Source of the DNA: Streptoverticillium olivoreticuli subsp. olivoreticuli
GTDB taxonomy: Bacteria > Actinomycetota > Actinomycetes > Streptomycetales > Streptomycetaceae
DNA: 64,000 nt
Assembly: GCF_003391135.1 (NCBI RefSeq)
Contig: NZ_CP031455.1
Location: 6,618,001-6,682,000, forward strand
Direction: 5' to 3'
Under the pieces are notes generated by a model. It did no database searches. It was not told where the DNA came from and saw only the letters and a program-made list of their open reading frames with translations. This document shows positions 18,341 through 27,188 of this stretch, in pieces; the stretch's first letter is position 1; each line of letters begins with the position of its first letter. Position numbers and translations under genes: made by a program.

Positions 18341-19945
18341 GTGAGCACAGCTTCGTCCCGTAAACCCGTCGTACTGATCGCGGAGGAGCTCTCGCCCGCG
18401 ACCGTCGACGCCCTGGGTCCGGACTTCGAGATCCGGCACTGCAACGGCGCGGACCGCGCCGCCCTGCTGCCCGCCATCGTCGATGTGGACGCCGTCCTCG
18501 TCCGCAGCGCCACGAAGATCGACGCCGAGGCGATCGCGGCCGCCAAGCGGCTGCGGGTCGTCGCGCGCGCCGGTGTCGGTCTGGACAACGTCGACGTCGC
18601 CGCCGCGACCAAGGCCGGCGTGATGGTCGTGAACGCCCCGACCTCCAACATCGTCACCGCCGCCGAGCTCGCGTGCGGCCTGCTGATCGCCACCGCCCGC
18701 AACATCCCGCAGGCCAACTCGGCGCTGAAGAACGGCGAGTGGAAGCGTTCGAAGTACACCGGCGTCGAGCTGTCCGAGAAGACCCTCGGCGTCGTCGGTC
18801 TCGGCCGCATCGGGGTGCTCGTCGCCCAGCGCATGTCCGCGTTCGGCATGAAGATCGTCGCCTACGACCCCTATGTGCAGCCCGCGCGGGCCGCGCAGAT
18901 GGGGGTGAAGCTGCTGACGCTGGACGAGCTGCTGGAGGCCGCGGACTTCATCACCGTCCACCTGCCCAAGACCCCCGAGACGCTCGGCCTCATCGGCGAC
19001 GAGGCGCTGCACAAGGTCAAGCCGTCGGTGCGGATCGTCAACGCCGCGCGCGGCGGGATCGTGGACGAGGCGGCGCTGGCCACGGCGCTGAAGGAGGGCC
19101 GGGTCGCGGCCGCGGGCCTGGACGTCTACACCCAGGAGCCGTGCACGGACTCCCCGCTGTTCGAGTTCGACAGCGTGGTCGCCACCCCGCACCTGGGCGC
19201 CTCCACGGGCGAGGCGCAGGAGAAGGCGGGCATCGCGGTCGCGAAGTCGGTCCGGCTCGCGCTGGCCGGCGAGCTGGTGCCGGACGCGGTCAACGTCCAG
19301 GGCGGTGTCATCGCCGAGGACGTCAAGCCGGGTCTGCCGCTCGCCGAGAAGCTCGGCCGCATCTTCACCGCGCTCGCGGGCGAGGTCGCGGTGCGGCTCG
19401 ACGTCGAGGTGTACGGCGAGCTCACCCAGCACGACGTCAAGGTGCTCGAACTGTCCGCGCTCAAGGGCGTGTTCGAGGATGTCGTCGACGAGACCGTGTC
19501 GTACGTCAACGCCCCGCTGTTCGCGCAGGAGCGGGGTGTCGAGGTCCGCCTGACCACCAGCTCGGAGTCGGCCGAACACCGCAACGTGGTCACCGTGCGC
19601 GGCACCCTGTCGGGCGGCGACGAGGTCTCGATCTCCGGCACGCTCGCGGGCCCCAAGCACCTCCAGAAGATCGTCGCGGTCGGTGAGCACGACGTGGACC
19701 TGGCGCTCGCCGACCACATGGCGTTCCTGCGCTACGGCGACCGCCCCGGTGTCGTCGGCACGGTCGGCCGGATCCTGGGCGAGGCGGGCATCAACATCGC
19801 CGGCATGCAGGTCTCCCGGGCGCGGGAGGGCGGCGAGGCCCTGGTCGCCCTGACCGTCGACGAATCCATCCCGGCACCGGTCCTCGCCGAGATCGCCGAG
19901 GAGATCGGCGCGGCGTCGGCGCGCGCGGTGAATCTGACCGACTGA
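18341..19945 (+). CDS. serA: D-3-phosphoglycerate dehydrogenase
   Basis: SerA oxidises 3-phosphoglycerate with NAD, the first step of serine synthesis. At 534 residues it is the long type known from mycobacteria. A catalytic/Rossmann core (to about 315) carries VVGLGRIGVLVAQRM, the Arg in NAARGGIVDEAALA and the His in TPHLGASTGEAQ. An intervening allosteric substrate-binding domain (about 320-450) follows, then a C-terminal ACT domain (about 456-529, FLRYGDRPGVVGTVG) that in the family binds serine for feedback inhibition. The GTG at 18341 lies after GTGAGGACCAC. The gene ends against the convergent Rieske gene. Confidence 0.97.
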   Translation: MSTASSRKPVVLIAEELSPATVDALGPDFEIRHCNGADRAALLPAIVDVDAVLVRSATKIDAEAIAAAKRLRVVARAGVGLDNVDVAAATKAGVMVVNAPTSNIVTAAELACGLLIATARNIPQANSALKNGEWKRSKYTGVELSEKTLGVVGLGRIGVLVAQRMSAFGMKIVAYDPYVQPARAAQMGVKLLTLDELLEAADFITVHLPKTPETLGLIGDEALHKVKPSVRIVNAARGGIVDEAALATALKEGRVAAAGLDVYTQEPCTDSPLFEFDSVVATPHLGASTGEAQEKAGIAVAKSVRLALAGELVPDAVNVQGGVIAEDVKPGLPLAEKLGRIFTALAGEVAVRLDVEVYGELTQHDVKVLELSALKGVFEDVVDETVSYVNAPLFAQERGVEVRLTTSSESAEHRNVVTVRGTLSGGDEVSISGTLAGPKHLQKIVAVGEHDVDLALADHMAFLRYGDRPGVVGTVGRILGEAGINIAGMQVSRAREGGEALVALTVDESIPAPVLAEIAEEIGAASARAVNLTD

Positions 19946-19956
19946 GTCAGGGCACC

Positions 19957-19988
19957 GGACGGGCCGGACCCGCGGGTCCGGCCCGTCC
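19957..19988. terminator. Bidirectional stem-loop between serA and the Rieske gene
   Basis: GGACGGGCCGGACC and GGTCCGGCCCGTCC form a perfect 14-bp stem around CGCG. The whole 32-base element is a complete palindrome, so it works equally on both strands. It fills the 49-base space between the convergent stops of serA and the oxygenase gene. Confidence 0.8.
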
Positions 19989-19994
19989 CGCATT

Positions 19995-21074
19995 TCAGAG
20001 CTTGGCCCGTGCGAAATAGGCGTCAGGATCCTGGCCGTCAGGGGTGGGGTAGAACTGACGGGACCACTTGCGGTGGGCTCCGATGGGGCCGTCGCCGCCG
20101 GCGAGCCTGGGCGGCGCGGTGAATCGTTTGTGGTGAAACACTCCGAGGTCGCGGGCCGCGTCCTTCCTGGTCTGCCAGAAGATGGGGTACTGGAGCAGCC
20201 GCAGCACCTTCCGGGAGAGCAGCGCGCCGACCGGTCCGGGCGCGTCGGAGTGATCGAGGAATTCCAGGCTGGACGCGAGGCTGTAGCGCATGCGGCCGGG
20301 GCCTATGGGCGTGGCGAGCAGCCAATTGACGGAGTAGAGGCCGTATTCGCGCATTTCCACGTTGATGTTGGCGCCGGCGAGTCCTGGGAACTGGTTGAGG
20401 AACTCGGACTTCGCGGTGACCGGGCCGATCCTGCGACCTGCCCTCATCGTCACCCGGCCGAAGGGGCCGTCGTACCGCGGGGGCACCACGACTTCCAGGT
20501 CGATCAGCCCGTGCAGGTACGTGAGGTGGGTGTAGTCGACGACGTTCTCCGAGACGTCCTGGGGATATCCGCCGAGATCGGTGATCTGATAGACGGGGTC
20601 GCGGGCGTGTTCGAGCCCGGTGAGGCCGGCGGACAGCTCCCAGGTCGGGCCCGTGTTCTCGCCATGGTGCCAGACCCAGACGATCCCCCATTCCTCCCGC
20701 AGCGGGAGCATGGACAGGGAGATGTCCGGAGCGGGCCCGTAGGGGCTGTGGACACAATCCCCGTTCGTCGAATAGCGGAGATGGTGGAAGGGGCACTGCA
20801 GTTCCTCGTCCCGCACTGTGCCGCCGACTCCGAGGTGTGCGCCGAGGTGGGGGCAGTACGGGCGGGTGGCTTTGAGGGTGCCCCGCGCGGTGCGGAACAC
20901 GACGAGGTCCTCGCCCATGAAGGGGACGGTGTGGACGCTCCCGGGTGCCCACATGTCGGAGAATCCCGCGCAGAACCATCCGTTGGGATAAGGCAGGGCG
21001 GGAGGGCCGCTCCGGTACCCGGGTCGGGCCTCATCGGGGAATCGATGGACTCGCGCAGTCGAATTCTTGCGCAT
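19995..21074 (-). CDS. Rieske non-heme iron oxygenase
   Basis: This 359-residue oxygenase should hydroxylate or desaturate a hydrophobic substrate using an external electron-transfer chain. The Rieske 2Fe-2S site is C74-P-H76 and C94-P-F-H97. The mononuclear iron site reads ENVVDYTHLTYLHG near residue 175, the family pattern with Asp and two His ligands. The overall form resembles the KshA/DAF-36-like oxygenases that act on sterols. The start is ATG 21074, six bases after GGAAGGTGA at the end of the terpene synthase gene. It is the last gene of the cassette cis-prenyltransferase, terpene synthase, oxygenase, so its substrate is probably the cyclised terpene. No reductase gene is adjacent. Confidence 0.92.
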   Translation of the reverse strand: MRKNSTARVHRFPDEARPGYRSGPPALPYPNGWFCAGFSDMWAPGSVHTVPFMGEDLVVFRTARGTLKATRPYCPHLGAHLGVGGTVRDEELQCPFHHLRYSTNGDCVHSPYGPAPDISLSMLPLREEWGIVWVWHHGENTGPTWELSAGLTGLEHARDPVYQITDLGGYPQDVSENVVDYTHLTYLHGLIDLEVVVPPRYDGPFGRVTMRAGRRIGPVTAKSEFLNQFPGLAGANINVEMREYGLYSVNWLLATPIGPGRMRYSLASSLEFLDHSDAPGPVGALLSRKVLRLLQYPIFWQTRKDAARDLGVFHHKRFTAPPRLAGGDGPIGAHRKWSRQFYPTPDGQDPDAYFARAKL

Positions 21075-21079
21075 TCTTG

Positions 21080-22153
21080 TCACCTTCCTTGGGCCGGGCC
21101 GGTGGTGGCGGGAGTGAGAAACCCTTCCTTGCGCTTGTACCGCAGGCACGTCTCCTGCCAGCGGTAGTAGCCGGACAGCGCGTCCTCGAGAACCCGGACG
21201 CCACGCAGGATGTCCTCCTTGTGCCTGGCGTGCGGGTCATCGGCGATATCGGTGAGGCCGCGCAACCTGTCGGCGATCCTGCGGAAGTCACGCAGACGCT
21301 GCTGGGTCATGTACGCGACGTGATGTGCTGCCGACTGAAGGCTGAGGTCCCGGTCCTGGCGCAGGACGAGAACGAGGTTGTGGGGGTTGCGGTAATGCAG
21401 GTCCTTGCGGACGGTGAACGTGTCATTGGACCAGAGCCACAGTTCGGCTGCCATGTCGCGGAGTTCGTAGAAGAGGCCCCGGTGGAGGTGGTCGGGAATG
21501 TTGGCGCCCTGGAGCCCTTCCAGGACGTCGATGCTGGGCCGGGTGGCTCCGTTGACCACGCGCAGACGTAAGTAGGCGTCCGTGTCCGGGAGTTCCTCCG
21601 CGGACCGGTTGCCGACCTCTTTTTCCATGGCGCTCAGATACTGCTTGACGTGCAGCGCGAAGCGGCCGCGCGGGTGTTCGGGGAAATAGTCGTAGAAGTC
21701 GCCCCACAGATCGGCCAGGGCGCGGGCCAGCGGGAAGGCGAGTCCGGGGGCGTTCGGTGACGGGGGCGGATCCTGGCTCAGGAGCAGGTCGAGCCGGGCT
21801 TTGCCGTCCTTGAACACCTCGGGGTCCCTGCCGAGCGGCCCGTCGTCGAAGATGTCGTCCCACAGGAACAGCCAGGCGACCCACTTGGCCATGAGAACGG
21901 CGCCGTGGGTGTCGGTACGCGGGCACCACCAGCCGGAGAACAGGCCGCACTGCATGTCGATCATGCGCTGCCGGGCCGCGTCGTCGTCCAGCAGGCCGAA
22001 GTCCGTCGCCCACTTCCGGGCCGCCCGCTCGGCCCGTTCGTGATCCGGATTGAGGGTGACGGGCCACGGCATGTGGTAGTCGGGGACCTCGTACCGGGTC
22101 ATGGCTGCCATGTCCTGGCCGTGGGTGTCATCGAACAGCCTGGGCTTGGGCAC
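21080..22153 (-). CDS. Class I terpene synthase with a TTA codon
   Basis: This 357-residue terpene cyclase ionises a prenyl diphosphate and cyclises it. The Asp-rich metal motif is WDDIFDDG (D99, D100, D103, D104). The second metal motif is the NSE variant NDTFTVRKD (N243, T247, D251). A C-terminal Arg-Tyr pair (CLRYKRK, near 341) also matches the family. Together these mark an active bacterial class I enzyme of usual length. Residue 195 is encoded by TTA (21569-21571 on this strand), so translation should depend on the bldA tRNA. GTG 22153 follows AGGAGAAGAGAC. The oxygenase starts five bases after its stop and the cis-prenyltransferase ends 27 bases before it. The product is unknown. Confidence 0.93.
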   Translation of the reverse strand: MPKPRLFDDTHGQDMAAMTRYEVPDYHMPWPVTLNPDHERAERAARKWATDFGLLDDDAARQRMIDMQCGLFSGWWCPRTDTHGAVLMAKWVAWLFLWDDIFDDGPLGRDPEVFKDGKARLDLLLSQDPPPSPNAPGLAFPLARALADLWGDFYDYFPEHPRGRFALHVKQYLSAMEKEVGNRSAEELPDTDAYLRLRVVNGATRPSIDVLEGLQGANIPDHLHRGLFYELRDMAAELWLWSNDTFTVRKDLHYRNPHNLVLVLRQDRDLSLQSAAHHVAYMTQQRLRDFRRIADRLRGLTDIADDPHARHKEDILRGVRVLEDALSGYYRWQETCLRYKRKEGFLTPATTGPAQGR

Positions 22154-22180
22154 GTCTCTTCTCCTGGTGGGATGCGGGTG

Positions 22181-22888
22181 CTAGCTCCCGTGGCGGCGCT
22201 GTCGGCCGGCGAACCACCGTCTGGCCTCGTCGAAGTCGCCGCGGGTGAAGTCGGGCCAGAGGGTGTCGGTGAAGTACAACTCGGCGTGGGCGGTCTGCCA
22301 GGGCATGAACCCGGAGAGGCGCTGTTCGCCGGAGGTGCGGATGACGAGGTCGATGTCGGGCTGGCCGGCGGTGGAGAGGTGCCGGGAGATGGCTGTTTCG
22401 TCGATCGGGGCGGTGCGCTCTTCCGGGGTGCGCTCGTGGAGCAGGGACCGGATCGCGGTGACGATGTCGGCGCGTCCGTCGTAGGCGACGGCGATGGTGA
22501 GGGTGCCCGCGCTGTTCGCTCCGGCGGACCGCAGAGCGAGGGTGCGCAGCCGGACGGCGTGGTGGGAGGGGATCCGGTCGAGGGCCCCGATGAGGCGGAT
22601 GTGCCACCGGGTGGCGGTGACGATCCTGTCGAGCCCGTGGGTGACGCTGTTCAGGATCTGCGCGACCTCCTGTGGGCGGCGCTGAAGGTTGTCCTGGGAC
22701 AGGGCCCAGACCGTGACCGCGCAGACCTGGGCCTGTTCGCACCAGGTCACCAAGTCGTGGACGCGCAGGGCCCCTTGGCGATAAGCCTGCTCCAGCGGCA
22801 CGTGGCGGCCCTGGGCCCACCGGCGGTTCCCGTCCAGGATCACGGCGACATGGCGCAGTTTCGGCTCTCGAGCGGTCAGTGCCGGCAT
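22181..22888 (-). CDS. Cis-prenyltransferase (UppS family)
   Basis: This 235-residue enzyme belongs to the undecaprenyl-diphosphate synthase family, which condenses isopentenyl diphosphate in cis. Family motifs are present: HVAVILDGNRRWA with catalytic Asp 19, DNLQRRPQEV in place of the usual ENW-R-P-EV, and RTSGEQRLSGF near 175 followed by WPDF. It is shorter than typical housekeeping UppS and starts a terpene operon, so a short-chain (Z)-prenyl diphosphate synthase or a branching lavandulyl-type condensing enzyme is more likely than cell-wall lipid synthesis. ATG 22888 follows GGGAGAACC; upstream in-frame extension shows no similarity. This family and its substrate use are inferred from motifs and context. 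Confidence 0.9.
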   Translation of the reverse strand: MPALTAREPKLRHVAVILDGNRRWAQGRHVPLEQAYRQGALRVHDLVTWCEQAQVCAVTVWALSQDNLQRRPQEVAQILNSVTHGLDRIVTATRWHIRLIGALDRIPSHHAVRLRTLALRSAGANSAGTLTIAVAYDGRADIVTAIRSLLHERTPEERTAPIDETAISRHLSTAGQPDIDLVIRTSGEQRLSGFMPWQTAHAELYFTDTLWPDFTRGDFDEARRWFAGRQRRHGS

Positions 22889-23238
22889 GGTTCTCCCGGC
22901 TCGGGCGCATCCAGGTCCGGGATGACATGGCCCACAGTTCAACCTCCCCCGACTCCCTGATGTATTCCGCAGGGACCGAGGCGTATACCGCGTCAGGGGG
23001 GCGCGTGGATCGAACCGAGGCACTTGACTGTTGTGCGCACGCAGACATGGACACGCCATCCCTGGGCGCGCTCCGATGCGCCCGTGCCGGGGGTGGTCGG
23101 GGTGCTCACAGGCCACGGTCGTGTCGCTCATGCGAATCCCACGTCGGACGTCGCCGCGGTGGCTCCGAACGATGGTCTGGAACTTTGTATAAGACGAGCG
23201 TCTAGTACACGCGTATGGCCCGGCACTAGGCTGCTGAC
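22889..23238. other. Divergent intergenic region, terpene cassette / TetR
   Basis: About 350 bases separate the start of the cis-prenyltransferase (minus) from the TetR gene (plus). The first 170 bases are ordinary GC-rich sequence with short frames that I do not accept as genes. TTGACT at 23024-23029 is a possible -35 box on the plus strand. The last 60 bases carry the 22-bp palindrome listed separately. Confidence 0.6.
23187..23208. promoter_or_regulatory. TetR-type palindromic operator
   Basis: The 22-base imperfect palindrome has half-sites AGACG and CGTCT around a two-base centre, and matching outer GTA/TAC triplets at equal distances. It lies 31 bases before the TetR start, in an AT-rich patch. 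This position suits autoregulation of that gene and possibly repression of the divergent terpene cassette. Confidence 0.7.
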
Positions 23239-23871
23239 ATGGGACATCGCGAAGACCTGCTCGACGGTGCGAAGGCCTGCATGCTCGAAAAGGGCTGGGT
23301 GCGCACCACCGCGCGCGACATCGTGGCCGCCTCCGGCGCCAACCTCGCCTCGATCGGCTACCACTACGGCTCCAAGGACGCGCTGATGATGGCGGCGTTC
23401 GTGAGGATGACCGAGGAGTGGGGTGCCGAGATGGGCCGCGCCCTGGAGGCCGGTGTGCCGGCGGACGCCTCGCGTGCGGAGCTCCTCGCGGCGAGGCTGG
23501 ACACGCTGACCGCGGGGTTCGGGAACAACCGGCAGTTCTGGGAGCTCCAGCTGGAGGTGATCGGCCAGTTGGGGAGCAACCCGGAGCTCAAGAAGTGGTT
23601 CGCCGGGGTCTTCCCGGAAGGCCGGCAAGGCATGGTGTCGATCTTCGAGGGTGTCGACGGCTGTTCCGCGAGCGACGAGGTGGTGCGCACCGTGGGTGCC
23701 TTCTACCACTCCCTCTTCGTCGGGATGTGGGTCCAGTGGGCCATAGACGCCGAATCCGCGCCGACCGGCGCGGATGTGGTCGAGGGGATGCGCCGGGTGC
23801 TGGCGGGCCGGCTCTCCGGGTCGCCCGGGTCCACCGGCGATACGGCGGCGGACGGCGGCGAGGGTGTCTGA
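23239..23871 (+). CDS. TetR-family transcriptional regulator
   Basis: This 210-residue regulator has an N-terminal helix-turn-helix (about residues 20-50: TTARDIVAASGANLASIGYHYGSKDALM), in which IGYHYGSK is the family's recognition-helix end. A helical ligand-binding domain follows. A 15-residue Gly/Ser/Asp-rich tail ends the protein. The ATG at 23239 is the only reasonable start. A 22-bp palindrome just upstream is its probable operator. It is divergent from the terpene cassette and convergent with the second TetR gene, so it may control the cassette. The ligand is unknown. Confidence 0.92.
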   Translation: MGHREDLLDGAKACMLEKGWVRTTARDIVAASGANLASIGYHYGSKDALMMAAFVRMTEEWGAEMGRALEAGVPADASRAELLAARLDTLTAGFGNNRQFWELQLEVIGQLGSNPELKKWFAGVFPEGRQGMVSIFEGVDGCSASDEVVRTVGAFYHSLFVGMWVQWAIDAESAPTGADVVEGMRRVLAGRLSGSPGSTGDTAADGGEGV

Positions 23872-23905
23872 CGGGTCCGGCGCCCCGCGGGCGTCGGACC
23901 CCTCC

Positions 23906-23960
23906 GCTCATCGATAGCTCATCGACAGCCCATCGAAGGCTCATCGGCAGCTCACCGATA
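23906..23960. repeat. Five tandem 11-bp repeats
   Basis: Five head-to-tail copies of an 11-base unit with consensus GCTCATCGAYA start at 23906, 23917, 23928, 23939 and 23950. Each differs from the consensus at no more than about two positions. The array lies between two convergent TetR genes, and its last copy overlaps the stop codon and last two codons of the minus-strand regulator. The unit length is close to one helical turn. Confidence 0.85.
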
Positions 23961-24551
23961 GGAAGTGATCAGCCGGGCCAGATGCCGCCCGGCGATCAGC
24001 AGCGGCTCCTCGCTCCGCGCGACCTGGGCCGCCAGCTCCGCGCCCTCCAGCGTGTTGATCACCGTGTGCGCGAGCTCGTAGGCGTCCTGCTCGGCGATCC
24101 CGCAGCCACGGAGCTTGTCGGCCACCAGCCCCCGCCAGCGCTCGAACGCCTCCGCCGCCGCCCGCTGGATATCGGGCGCGCGCCCGGCCGTCCCCAGGCT
24201 CGTCGCCGTGACCGGGCAGCCGTCGACCCAGTCGGAGGCGCGCAGCTCCTCGGCGACGACGCGGGCCACGTCGGTCACCGCCTGTGCCGGATCCTCCTCG
24301 GCGCCCAGCACCGACCGCAGGATGCCGGCGAACTCCCGGTCGCCGTGGCGGATCGCCTCCGCCGCCAGCTCCTGCTTGCCACCCGGGAAGAAGTGGTAGA
24401 CCGAGCCGAGCGTGGCCTCGGCCTCCCGGGAGATCTGCTTGATCCCGGTCCCCTCGTAGCCCTGACGCTGCATCAGCCGTGATGTCGCCCGGACGATCCG
24501 TTCGCGCGTGCCGAGGGCGGCGCCCGTGCCTGCCTGCGTAGTGGTCTTCAC
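23952..24551 (-). CDS. TetR-family regulator next to imine-reductase gene
   Basis: This 199-residue regulator has the TetR helix-turn-helix at about residues 30-58 (GTGIKQISREAEATLGSVYHFFPGGKQEL). Its C-terminal domain resembles the LmrA/YxaF type. The start is the GTG at 24551, with only a weak ribosome binding site, so a leaderless message is possible. It is divergent from the dehydrogenase gene at 24641. The shared 89-base region holds two copies of GAGCGTTCGTTC within palindromes, which are its probable operators. The last codons fall inside the 11-bp repeat array. Confidence 0.92.
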   Translation of the reverse strand: MKTTTQAGTGAALGTRERIVRATSRLMQRQGYEGTGIKQISREAEATLGSVYHFFPGGKQELAAEAIRHGDREFAGILRSVLGAEEDPAQAVTDVARVVAEELRASDWVDGCPVTATSLGTAGRAPDIQRAAAEAFERWRGLVADKLRGCGIAEQDAYELAHTVINTLEGAELAAQVARSEEPLLIAGRHLARLITSYR

Positions 24552-24640: not shown

Positions 24641-25531
24641 ATGTCTTTTCAGGCTTCCCAGGACAAGCAGGCCGTCACCGTCATCGGTCTCGGCCCCATG
24701 GGCACGGCGATGACCGAGGCGTTCCTGGCCGCCGGCCACCGGGTGACCGTGTGGAACCGCACGGCCGCCAAGGCCGACGCCCTCGTCGCCAAGGGCGCCG
24801 AGCGGGCGGCCACGGTCGAGGAGGCGCTGGCCGCCAACGAGTTGGTGGTCCTCAGCCTGACCGACTACGACGCGATGTACGCGATCCTCGGTCCCGCCAC
24901 CGCGGCGCTGTCCGGCCGGGTCCTCGTCAACCTCAGCTCCGACACCCCGGCGCGCGCCCGCGAGGCCGCCGCGTGGGCCGAGAGCCACGGCGCGCGCCAC
25001 CTCACCGGCGGGGTGCAGGTGCCGCCCTCGGGCATCGGCTCGCCGGGGTCGTCCACCTTCTACAGCGGCCCCCGGGACGTCTTCGAGGCCCACCGGCACA
25101 CCCTCCAGGTGCTCACCGGCACCGACTTCCGCGGCACCGACCCGGGCCTGGCCGCGCTGTACTACCAGCTCATGATGGACGTCTTCTGGACCACGATGAC
25201 CGGCTACCTGCACGCCGTCACCGTCGCCGACGCCCACGGCATCACCGCCGAGGAGTTCCTGCCGTACGCGAGCTCGATCGTGGCGTCGGTCCCGAACTTC
25301 CTCACGTTCTACACCCCGCGCATCGACGCCGGGCGGCACGACGGCGACGTCGACAACCTCGCCATGGGCGCCGCCAGTGTCGACCACGTCGTGCACACCA
25401 CCGAGGACGCGGGCGTCGACAGCTCGCTGCCCACGGCCGTCCTGGAGATCTTCCACCGCGGACTCGACCGGGGGCACGCGGGCGACAGCTTCACCAGCCT
25501 GATCGGGACGTTCAGGAAGCCTGTGGCGTAA
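24641..25531 (+). CDS. NAD(P)-dependent oxidoreductase, imine-reductase type
   Basis: This 296-residue enzyme has the 6-phosphogluconate/beta-hydroxyacid dehydrogenase fold. The Rossmann motif is VTVIGLGPMGTAMTEAFLAAG, followed by VWNRTAAKADALVAKG, which suits NADPH. The segments SLTDYDAMYAIL and YYQLMMDVFWTTMTGYLHAV resemble bacterial imine reductases, in which the Asp of the MMD segment sits near the substrate. The lysine typical of beta-hydroxyacid dehydrogenases is not evident. I therefore infer reduction of cyclic imines, with general dehydrogenase activity as the alternative. ATG 24641 follows GAGGGGG. It is divergent from a TetR regulator with twin operators. A 13-bp stem-loop follows the stop. 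Confidence 0.85.
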   Translation: MSFQASQDKQAVTVIGLGPMGTAMTEAFLAAGHRVTVWNRTAAKADALVAKGAERAATVEEALAANELVVLSLTDYDAMYAILGPATAALSGRVLVNLSSDTPARAREAAAWAESHGARHLTGGVQVPPSGIGSPGSSTFYSGPRDVFEAHRHTLQVLTGTDFRGTDPGLAALYYQLMMDVFWTTMTGYLHAVTVADAHGITAEEFLPYASSIVASVPNFLTFYTPRIDAGRHDGDVDNLAMGAASVDHVVHTTEDAGVDSSLPTAVLEIFHRGLDRGHAGDSFTSLIGTFRKPVA

Positions 25532-25548
25532 GGAAACGCGTACGCGGA

Positions 25549-25584
25549 TGCGGCCGTGACACCTCGGGGGATGTCACGGCCGCA
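25549..25584 (+). terminator. Stem-loop after the imine-reductase-like gene
   Basis: TGCGGCCGTGACA and its exact complement form a 13-bp stem with a ten-base loop, 17 bases after the stop codon. The rest of the 160 bases up to the P450 gene contains the tandem nine-base repeat CTGGACGTA/CTGGATGTA (25692-25709), which may belong to the P450 promoter or operator. Confidence 0.75.
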
Positions 25585-25743
25585 CCCGTGTGTGCGGACC
25601 TGTCCGGGAAGGCGTAGCGGTGTGCCGTATTTCGTCGTTGTACGGGAAGTGGCCGGATTACGCGTAGCCGACCGCGCTGGAGCAGCTTGCACTGGACGTA
25701 CTGGATGTAGAGGACATTCGTCCGAACGCCTGGAAGGTTGGCC

Positions 25744-26958
25744 ATGACCGACTCCGGAATCCGTACCCTCCCGCCCGCCGCGCCCGTGTTCCCCCAGGAC
25801 CGCACCTGTCCGTACCGGCCGCCCGCGGACTACGACCGGCTGATCGCGGACGGGCCGCTGACGCGCGCCACGCTGTACGACGGGCGCCAGGTGTGGCTGG
25901 TGACCGGGCACGCCGAGGCCAGGGCCCTGCTCGTCGATCCCCGGCTGTCCACCGACCGGCAGAATCCGGCCTTCCCCGTCATCGCCCCGAGCAGCGAGCG
26001 GCAGGGCGAGATCCGCCTGCCGGTCCTCGGCGTCGACGACCCCGAGCACGGCCGGCAGCGCCGCATGCTCATCCCCCACTTCGGCCTGAAGCGCGTCACC
26101 GCCATGCGGCCGCGGATCCAGCAGGTCGTCGACGGCCTGCTCGACACCATGCTGGCCGAGGGGCCGGGGGCGGATCTCGTCCGCGCCTTCGCCCTGCCCG
26201 TGCCGTCGATGGTCATCTGCGACCTGCTCGGCATCCCCTACGCCGACCACGCCTTCTTCGAGGACAGTTCGCGGGCGATGCTCATCGCCGGGACGTCGGA
26301 CGAGTCGATGGCCGCCTTCGACGAGCTGCGGGACTATCTGGAGGACCTGGTCGACCGCAGGCGGGCGGAGCCCGGCGAGGGCCTCCTCGACGAACTCGTG
26401 GCCGACCGGCTCGCCGCCGGGGAGCTCGACCGGAACGAAGTCGCGCTGACCGCCCTGCTGTTGCTCGTCGCCGGGCACGAGACCACCTCGAACATGATCT
26501 CCCTGGGAACGTACTCCCTGCTCGAACACCCCGACCAGCTCGCCGCGTTGCGCGCCGACCCGGCGCTGATGCCCGGGGCGGTCGAGGAGCTGCTGCGGTT
26601 CCTGTCCATCGCCGACGGGCTCATACGCGTGGCCACCGAGGACTTCGAGATCGGCGGCCGGACCGTACGCGCCGGGGACGGCGTCATGATCGGCACCTCG
26701 CTGGTCAACCGGGACGCGGCCGCCTACGCCGACCCGGACGCCCTCGACGTCCACCGGTCGGCCCGCCACCACGTCGCCTTCGGCTTCGGCGTCCATCAGT
26801 GCCTCGGCCAGAACCTGGCCCGGGCCGAGATGGAGATCGCCCTCACCACGCTCTTCCAGCGCATCCCGACCCTGAGCCCGGCCGTCGCCCCCGACGAGGT
26901 CCCCCTCAAGCCCGGGCACAGCCTGCAGGGTCTCTTCGCCTTCCCCGTCACCTGGTGA
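25744..26958 (+). CDS. Cytochrome P450, CYP105-like
   Basis: This is a 404-residue soluble bacterial P450 monooxygenase. The I-helix oxygen-activating motif is AGHETTS (residues 243-249), the K-helix ExxR is EELLRF, and the heme ligand is C353 in FGFGVHQCLGQNLAR. The N-terminus (FPQDRTCPYRPPADYDRL, LVDPRLSTDRQNPAFP) is that of the CYP105 family, whose members hydroxylate diverse xenobiotics and secondary metabolites. ATG 25744 follows GGAAGG. A 3Fe-4S ferredoxin gene follows 26 bases downstream as the usual electron donor. Whether it acts on the nearby terpene product or on something unrelated cannot be told. Confidence 0.95.
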   Translation: MTDSGIRTLPPAAPVFPQDRTCPYRPPADYDRLIADGPLTRATLYDGRQVWLVTGHAEARALLVDPRLSTDRQNPAFPVIAPSSERQGEIRLPVLGVDDPEHGRQRRMLIPHFGLKRVTAMRPRIQQVVDGLLDTMLAEGPGADLVRAFALPVPSMVICDLLGIPYADHAFFEDSSRAMLIAGTSDESMAAFDELRDYLEDLVDRRRAEPGEGLLDELVADRLAAGELDRNEVALTALLLLVAGHETTSNMISLGTYSLLEHPDQLAALRADPALMPGAVEELLRFLSIADGLIRVATEDFEIGGRTVRAGDGVMIGTSLVNRDAAAYADPDALDVHRSARHHVAFGFGVHQCLGQNLARAEMEIALTTLFQRIPTLSPAVAPDEVPLKPGHSLQGLFAFPVTW

Positions 26959-26984
26959 CGGCCTCACGGAAACGGAAAACCACC

Positions 26985-27188
26985 ATGAGCACCATCCGTA
27001 TCTCCATCGACTCCGACCTCTGCGTCGGCTCGGGCCAGTGCGCGCTGACCGCGCCCGGTGTCTTCACCCAGGACGACGACGGCTACGGCGCGGTGCTGCC
27101 CGGCCGCGAGGACGGCGGGGGCGACCCGCTGGCCCGCGAGGCGGCGCGGGCGTGCCCCGTCGGCGCGGTCACGGTGGAGGAGGACTAG
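26985..27188 (+). CDS. 3Fe-4S ferredoxin for the P450
   Basis: This 67-residue ferredoxin donates electrons to the upstream P450. The cluster ligands are visible as CVGSGQC (two Cys five residues apart) and the later ACPVGAV. The middle Cys of a 4Fe-4S type is absent, which is the Streptomyces 3Fe-4S pattern. It starts at the ATG 26 bases after the P450 stop and is surely co-transcribed. The stop lies only 11 bases from the convergent PucR gene. Confidence 0.95.
   Translation: MSTIRISIDSDLCVGSGQCALTAPGVFTQDDDGYGAVLPGREDGGGDPLAREAARACPVGAVTVEED

Follow-up and report, generated by a model that had tools for sequence, protein, structure and literature searches.

A putative cis-prenyl terpenoid module in Streptomyces: adjacent genes for a cis-prenyltransferase, a terpene synthase and a Rieske oxygenase

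Three adjacent genes of terpenoid type

We analysed a stretch of 64,000 nucleotides (here called the window) from the soil Streptomyces Streptoverticillium olivoreticuli subsp. olivoreticuli (contig NZ_CP031455.1, positions 6,618,001 to 6,682,000), in which three genes on the minus strand encode a cis-prenyltransferase (CPT), a terpene synthase (TS) and a Rieske oxygenase (RO). Judged from their sequences, the three would form one operon whose product is a cyclic, oxygenated terpenoid derived from a prenyl diphosphate of Z configuration, most likely of C20–C25 chain length, a reading to which we assign a probability of roughly 55%. A preliminary description of the locus had reported three tightly spaced minus-strand genes, and the coordinates, Pfam matches and TS metal motifs all agree with it:

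22181–22888, minus strand: CPT gene, 235 amino acids, resembling cis-geranylfarnesyl diphosphate (GFPP) synthase; PF01255, similarity to PDB entry 8wu7 and catalytic positions as in 8wu7
21080–22153, minus strand: TS gene, 357 amino acids, GTG start; class I, PF19086, with DDxxxD-type and NSE motifs
19995–21074, minus strand: RO gene, 359 amino acids; KshA-type Rieske non-heme iron oxygenase, PF00355 and PF19298

The CPT and TS genes are separated by 27 nt, and the TS and RO genes by 5 nt. The G+C content at third codon positions is 0.915, 0.874 and 0.850 for the CPT, TS and RO genes, compared with a mean of 0.946 (standard deviation 0.030) over the 41 other predicted genes of the window, four of which likewise fall below 0.90.

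The CPT matches PF01255 (E 2.1e-63; 214.3 bits, cut-off 27) and keeps Asp26, Asn28, Arg30, Asn74, Arg77, Arg194, Arg200, Ser202, Glu213 and the RXG motif. A Tyr replaces His43 (E. coli numbering), as it does both in 8wu7, the cis-GFPP (C25) synthase of S. clavuligerus, and in Rv1086, the (Z,E)-farnesyl diphosphate (FPP) synthase of M. tuberculosis. The genome holds four PF01255 genes: UppS (L036), two of the PRK14828 type (L037 and L038) and the cassette CPT. L037 and L038 pass the NCBIfam model PRK14828 (432.5 and 375.5 bits, cut-off 348), whereas the cassette CPT fails it at 233.5 bits. Clustering with housekeeping UppS had been set beforehand as the test of the original interpretation; in trees of 24 and 19 rows the CPT does not cluster in this way. 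A housekeeping UppS identity was rejected, the CPT lying outside the UppS pair (support 100/98) in a genome with a separate UppS. In the second tree the Rv1086-like rows form a clade (96/94) without it. The CPT is distinct both from the genome's UppS and from its two Rv1086-like enzymes.

The TS matches PF19086 (E 1.9e-39; 136 bits, cut-off 23.7) and carries the metal motifs DDIFDDG and NDTFTVRKD; both motif types are invariant or nearly so over the TSs of the five cassettes described below. None of the 10 named NCBIfam TS equivalogs listed was passed, the best being isoafricanol synthase (152.3 of 500 bits). In total, PF19086 occurs at 10 places in the genome. The RO matches PF00355 (E 1.2e-17; 64 bits, cut-off 20.3) and PF19298, or KshA_C (E 1.7e-11; 45 bits, cut-off 23.3), and its Rieske residues C74, H76, C94 and H97 and iron-site residues H183, H188 and D309 are invariant among eight aligned homologues. 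The best solved matches are KshA (3-ketosteroid 9-alpha-hydroxylase) chains at 86 bits, a match limited to roughly the first 190 residues. The trio itself does not include a reductase gene that could serve the RO. The genome's seven trans-prenyl synthase (PF00348) places are potential sources of starter, and none of them lies inside the window range.

Recurrence, acquisition and exchange

When the genus (392 genomes) was searched with the TS, 52 genomes, including the window's own, had hits at E <= 1e-30; one other was close (G303, 58% identity) and the remainder were 28–34% identical. A class-wide sample held a close TS in two of 394 genomes (the window and G761), and in 50 plasmid records the best among the matches listed was 31.5% identical. 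Among named genomes, TSs of 57–59% identity were found in Streptomyces sp. UNOB3_S3, S. abikoensis, S. albireticuli and S. eurocidicus, by a scan with two short patterns that may have missed others; G303 and S. eurocidicus were counted once, as were G761 and S. abikoensis. The order CPT–TS–RO on one strand is present in all four, and this recurrence argues that the trio is not a product of chance. The gaps there are wider (79–216 and 34–125 nt), so that the tight packing is peculiar to the window. For two close pairs of cassettes the ratio of nonsynonymous to synonymous substitution rates (dN/dS) is 0.17–0.36 for all three genes, which indicates that the genes are maintained by purifying selection in these sister cassettes.

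The cassettes occupy different chromosomal sites. S. abikoensis and UNOB3_S3 share one, and S. albireticuli and S. eurocidicus another; across these and the window's own (of which 10–34 kb was compared) the trio is the sole match, bar one 28% match between S. abikoensis and S. eurocidicus genes. The 3' part of serA, which marks the window's site, could be located in all 25 genomes searched, own included. Twelve downstream stretches were sampled and, one contig having ended, 11 were readable; none of these 11 relatives has the cassette. In G015 and G004 a relative (41%) of the window's TetR gene follows serA after 82 and 77 nt, its counterpart in the window sitting behind the cassette, and we take this direct succession as the empty site. 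The preliminary description was thus right to suspect acquired accessory DNA: given the cassette-free relatives and the other sites, the trio is an acquired module that moves as a unit, conserved and mobile rather than housekeeping. It had also placed the cassette in a conserved block between serA and the put genes, which is not strictly so, since in the 11 relatives the interval, depending on the genome, carries major facilitator superfamily (MFS) or ATP-binding cassette (ABC) transporter genes, a TetR gene or a CPT, or is nearly empty. This variable interval corresponds to window 19945–23239 and to loci L116 and L118–L127. The only CPT at the site in relatives, that of G005, is 36.6% identical to the cassette CPT.

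The phylogenies of TS and CPT differ. The TSs of the five cassettes form one clade (100/100), while constraining their CPTs to a single clade lowers the log-likelihood by 47.5 and is rejected (approximately unbiased test, p-AU 0.00028). Between S. abikoensis and S. eurocidicus, identity is 76% for TS, 60% for RO and 48% for CPT, the last being below the 54% between the window and S. abikoensis CPTs. One TS clade with a rejected CPT clade suggests that the CPT slot was refilled and the cyclase kept; on the simplest reading of these trees, the CPT was apparently replaced in one lineage and the TS retained. The CPT dN/dS of 0.53 for S. abikoensis against S. eurocidicus (dS near 1) fits such an exchange.

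Pairing of a CPT with a TS extends beyond the trio. A CPT search of the 392 genomes gave 27 CPTs at 1e-74, falling into a top nine and a lower 18 with an Rv1086-like signature (seven of the 18 in the first CPT tree and three in the second; 11 judged by motif only). A TS-like gene is close to the CPT in seven of the top nine (G303, the window, G337 at about 1.5 kb, G108, G262, G228 and G083), compared with a TS within about 1.5 kb in none of the 18. In the class sample a CPT exceeded the limit in 351 of 394 genomes, and a TS stands beside a CPT in two of the 30 loci listed (the window and G761). The 8wu7 gene itself (57.3%) is present in 16 S. clavuligerus plasmid records; in the one examined, the gene for WP_003963511.1, annotated as hypothetical, begins 30 nt after it. 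This protein (L191 9703–10803) is a PF19086 member (E 1.2e-33) with an NDVASLHKE motif. A JCM17656 plasmid has the order CPT, TS and flavin adenine dinucleotide (FAD) enzyme, and in two S. anulatus plasmids the neighbour of the CPT is not a TS. Neither CPT tree includes the high-scoring CPTs of G170 and G099 or the broken G083 gene; the entry labelled 'L085' in the first tree is a different CPT at the G170 locus. Also absent from the second tree are the CPT of S. anulatus and the fused one of L084.

A second set, in which the genes for CPT, TS and RO are followed directly by another TS gene, occurs in G108, G262 and G083, the CPT of G083 being interrupted by a stop codon. Its first TS is 26–27% identical to that of the window; the NSE motif was found in it, and a motif search did not find the usual aspartate-rich motif. 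In a tree that included 19 of 40 further TS-like open reading frames (ORFs), the CPT-adjacent TSs are not one clade, with three changes on the tree and at least two forced. In the RO tree, with 20 ROs from outside modules, a clade of the second set and the five cassettes is rejected (p-AU 0.0018) and the five as sole clade are not (p-AU 0.42), the G073 RO falling among them; these values are sensitive to model and long branches, and the five-only grouping was named after its members had been seen. The RO results suggest that the CPT–TS–RO combination was probably assembled more than once.

Several further loci deserve mention. The high-scoring CPTs of G170 (L085) and G099 (L087) adjoin ABC-transporter and trans-prenyl synthase-like genes, and L085 has a second CPT. 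Two loci that hold relatives of the cassette RO (L188 in G073, L189 in G108) also contain a trans-polyprenyl synthase-like gene together with TS-like ORFs, and the first has two cytochrome P450-like genes as well. About 4 kb from its four-gene set, G108 encodes a 580-amino-acid protein (L084 10819–12561) with a C-terminal CPT domain and a front part that, as judged by eye, is squalene/phytoene-synthase-like.

Around the cassette in the window lie two further features:

19957–19988, no strand assigned: perfect 32-base palindrome, identical to its own reverse complement, between the convergent ends of the RO gene and serA
23192–23203, no strand assigned: box AGACGAGCGTCT, preceding the TetR gene at 23239–23871 (plus strand) and flanking the cassette

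The palindrome is a possible terminator common to the RO gene and serA. A terminator scan of 19900–23300, which requires a T run, found one against 1.1 expected and did not flag it. A sigma-70-type promoter scan of the same range found none against 0.3 expected, and Rfam gave no matches in 19500–24000. Control of the cassette through the TetR box was rejected, the same type of box preceding the TetR gene in the cassette-free G015 and G004. Near the trio (24641–27188) are a reductase-like gene, a P450 whose nearest NCBIfam model is pentalenolactone synthase (256.7 of the 700 bits required) and a small ferredoxin-like gene. No homologue of any of these was present among the genes predicted near the four other cassettes, and the P450 and ferredoxin-like gene (25744–27188) were rejected as members of the module.

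A proposed pathway and its rivals

The reading of the trio as one operon builds on gene content and order, catalytic residues, phylogeny, acquisition and purifying selection in the sister cassettes. In the proposed pathway, the host's own trans-prenyl synthases would supply an E-configured starter, namely geranyl diphosphate (GPP), FPP or geranylgeranyl diphosphate (GGPP), onto which the CPT would add isopentenyl diphosphate (IPP) in cis, head to tail. The product would be a short to medium chain of mixed E/Z configuration, most likely C20–C25, with the double bond nearest the diphosphate in Z configuration. The neighbouring TS would ionise and cyclise it, the 2Z double bond bringing C1 within reach of the chain, so that the isomerisation needed for all-E substrates could be skipped. 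The KshA-type RO could then hydroxylate or desaturate the resulting hydrocarbon, drawing electrons from a reductase of the host. The trio would be mobile as a unit, and its CPT slot refillable from another CPT lineage. Chain length, hand-over of the substrate, oxidation and the membership of all three enzymes in one pathway are what we infer here. The preliminary description had already proposed a Z-configured cyclase substrate, and this is still the natural reading, as the characterised relative 8wu7 is also encoded directly before a TS gene.

The expected chain length is based on similarity to 8wu7. The predicted CPT model has a mean predicted local distance difference test score (pLDDT) of 83.6, and its nearest solved structure is 8wu7 (Z 29.1, 57% identity, 252 bits). 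At 26 positions that we take to line the tunnel of E. coli UppS, the window CPT is identical to 8wu7 at 19, and those of S. abikoensis and UNOB3_S3 at 18 and 17. The genome's own UppS scores 3, its Rv1086-like enzymes 10 and 8, Rv1086 itself 9 and E. coli UppS 7. At E. coli position 69 both the window CPT and 8wu7 have Ala, where Rv1086-like enzymes have a Leu or Met that limits chain growth. The chain-determining region, of 23 residues, is three shorter than that of UppS. The 8wu7 enzyme reportedly gives both C20 and C25 products, and a cis-GFPP-synthase-type C20–C25 product is most likely for the CPT, given the 57% identity and the 19 of 26 tunnel positions.

A number of observations weigh against this interpretation. 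The CPT passes the broad NCBIfam model TIGR00055 (uppS; 186.2 bits, cut-off 109.6), under which plain annotation would file it. The S. albireticuli and S. eurocidicus CPTs have Pro at position 69 and match 8wu7 at only 10 and 11 of the tunnel positions, suggesting that chain length may vary among cassettes, and a shortened region of 23 residues also occurs in the Rv1086-like L037. A branch separates all TS-linked CPTs from the others, but at 39/45 its support is too low for a supported clade. The TS model is weak (pLDDT 58) and its pocket is therefore uninformative on chain length; its structural matches are class I synthases, the best with Z 15.4 and a root-mean-square deviation of 16.5. For two of the top nine CPTs, those of G170 and G099, there is no TS-like ORF in 13 kb.

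The main rival keeps the pathway and has the CPT make C15 (2Z,6E)-FPP from GPP, as Rv1086 does, leading to an oxygenated sesquiterpene. Rv1086 is second by structure and ties with 8wu7 by Z score (28.6), a further point against the longer chain; it shares the Tyr at position 43, and sesquiterpene synthases are among the closest NCBIfam models for the TS. However, identity to Rv1086 is 42% against 57% for 8wu7, the CPT lies outside the Rv1086-like clade and it has Ala rather than Leu/Met at position 69, and we regard a C15 product as clearly less probable than C20–C25. A different proposal is that the CPT serves another purpose, as a source of lipid carrier or prenyl donor, with a TS that uses all-E substrates and genes that travel together without a common pathway. 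This could explain the related CPTs without a close TS (G170, G099 and the S. anulatus plasmids), would be served by the seven trans-synthase places and might account for a CPT lineage that changed while the TS stayed. It appears unlikely because the CPT adjoins a TS in five of five cassettes, and again in S. clavuligerus, JCM17656, G228, G108 and G262, and because the slot still held a CPT after the change of lineage.

The preliminary description had also entertained a branched prenyl diphosphate, which would require the CPT to make a head-to-middle product of the lavandulyl type for the TS to cyclise. UppS-fold enzymes of this kind exist in Streptomyces, according to passages of PMC7839719, and the plant lavandulyl synthase ranks fourth among the structural matches (Z 27.2, 32% identity) and is nearer by score (107 bits) than the bacterial ones. 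The Streptomyces head-to-middle enzymes are distant, with cyclolavandulyl synthase at 65 bits and isosesquilavandulyl synthase at 59 bits (24–26% identity) against 252 for 8wu7. The CPT also keeps the usual IPP-site residues, a feature that head-to-middle enzymes may share, and the C-terminal RXG motif is retained by both kinds alike, as parts of PMC8131916 describe. On this similarity a branched product appears very improbable, and this portion of the earlier proposal was not supported.

Returning to the proposed Z-configured pathway, a more general idea, for which we see about even odds, is that Streptomyces harbours mobile cis-prenyl terpene modules. In these, CPTs of the cis-GFPP synthase kind would be repeatedly paired with distantly related class I synthases and oxidases, the CPT being exchangeable while the cyclase stays, to give cyclic di- or sesterterpenoids on Z-configured chains. 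What would be new is that a bacterial cyclase has its own dedicated source of cis-prenyl substrate, and that this source has been exchanged; the S. clavuligerus relative shows that such a first step is feasible. The modules point to a little-explored type of bacterial terpene. Bacterial TSs are usually assayed with all-E substrates, and a functional TS study supplied FPP, GGPP or GFPP synthases, as passages of it describe (PMC12298776). If some TSs have a dedicated adjacent CPT, seemingly inactive ones may simply need the right Z substrate. With three small genes the hypothesis is readily testable, and the exchanged CPT, with the same cyclase and another lineage of supplier, offers a natural experiment on the mutual adaptation of the two.

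Comparison with known systems

The claim that no pathway with this trio had been described held within the openly accessible literature searched, where no bacterial CPT–TS–Rieske cluster was found by title or abstract (most subscription journals lay outside this scope), but it needs amending in that the first enzyme has a characterised Streptomyces relative. No bacterial cyclic di- or sesterterpenoid on Z-configured chains was found in the same literature, and the main text of PMC12298776 and PMC10509563 makes no mention of S. albireticuli, S. abikoensis or S. eurocidicus.

The gromomycin pathway is likewise a Streptomyces terpenoid pathway requiring Rieske oxygenases, as deletions of groA–C indicate, and passages of PMC12105684 record that its authors likened these to KshAB. 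It differs in its trans-type polyprenyl synthase GroD, three Rieske genes and guanidine transfer (PMC12105684, in part). Membership of the trio in such a pathway was rejected, there being no PF00348 place in the window range and a single Rieske gene.

Plant neryl, (Z,Z)-farnesyl and nerylneryl diphosphate synthases are 28–30% identical to the cassette CPT. They make all-Z products from dimethylallyl diphosphate (DMAPP), and their partner TSs belong to different families. They resemble the module in that a CPT feeds Z substrates to TSs, as sections of PMC8131916 set out.

Rv1086 and the Streptomyces Rv1086-like CPTs share the short-chain CPT fold and the shortened region, and differ in Leu/Met69, in their separate clade and in the lack of a TS within about 1.5 kb in all 18 Streptomyces members checked. 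The closest parallel is the cis-GFPP synthase of S. clavuligerus (PDB 8wu7 and 8ylz), to which the CPT is similar in identity (57%), Ala69 and the 23-residue region, and whose gene directly precedes a PF19086 gene. In contrast to the cassette, the adjoining TS there is unrelated at clade level to the cassette TS, and a P450 instead of a Rieske oxygenase lies beyond it.

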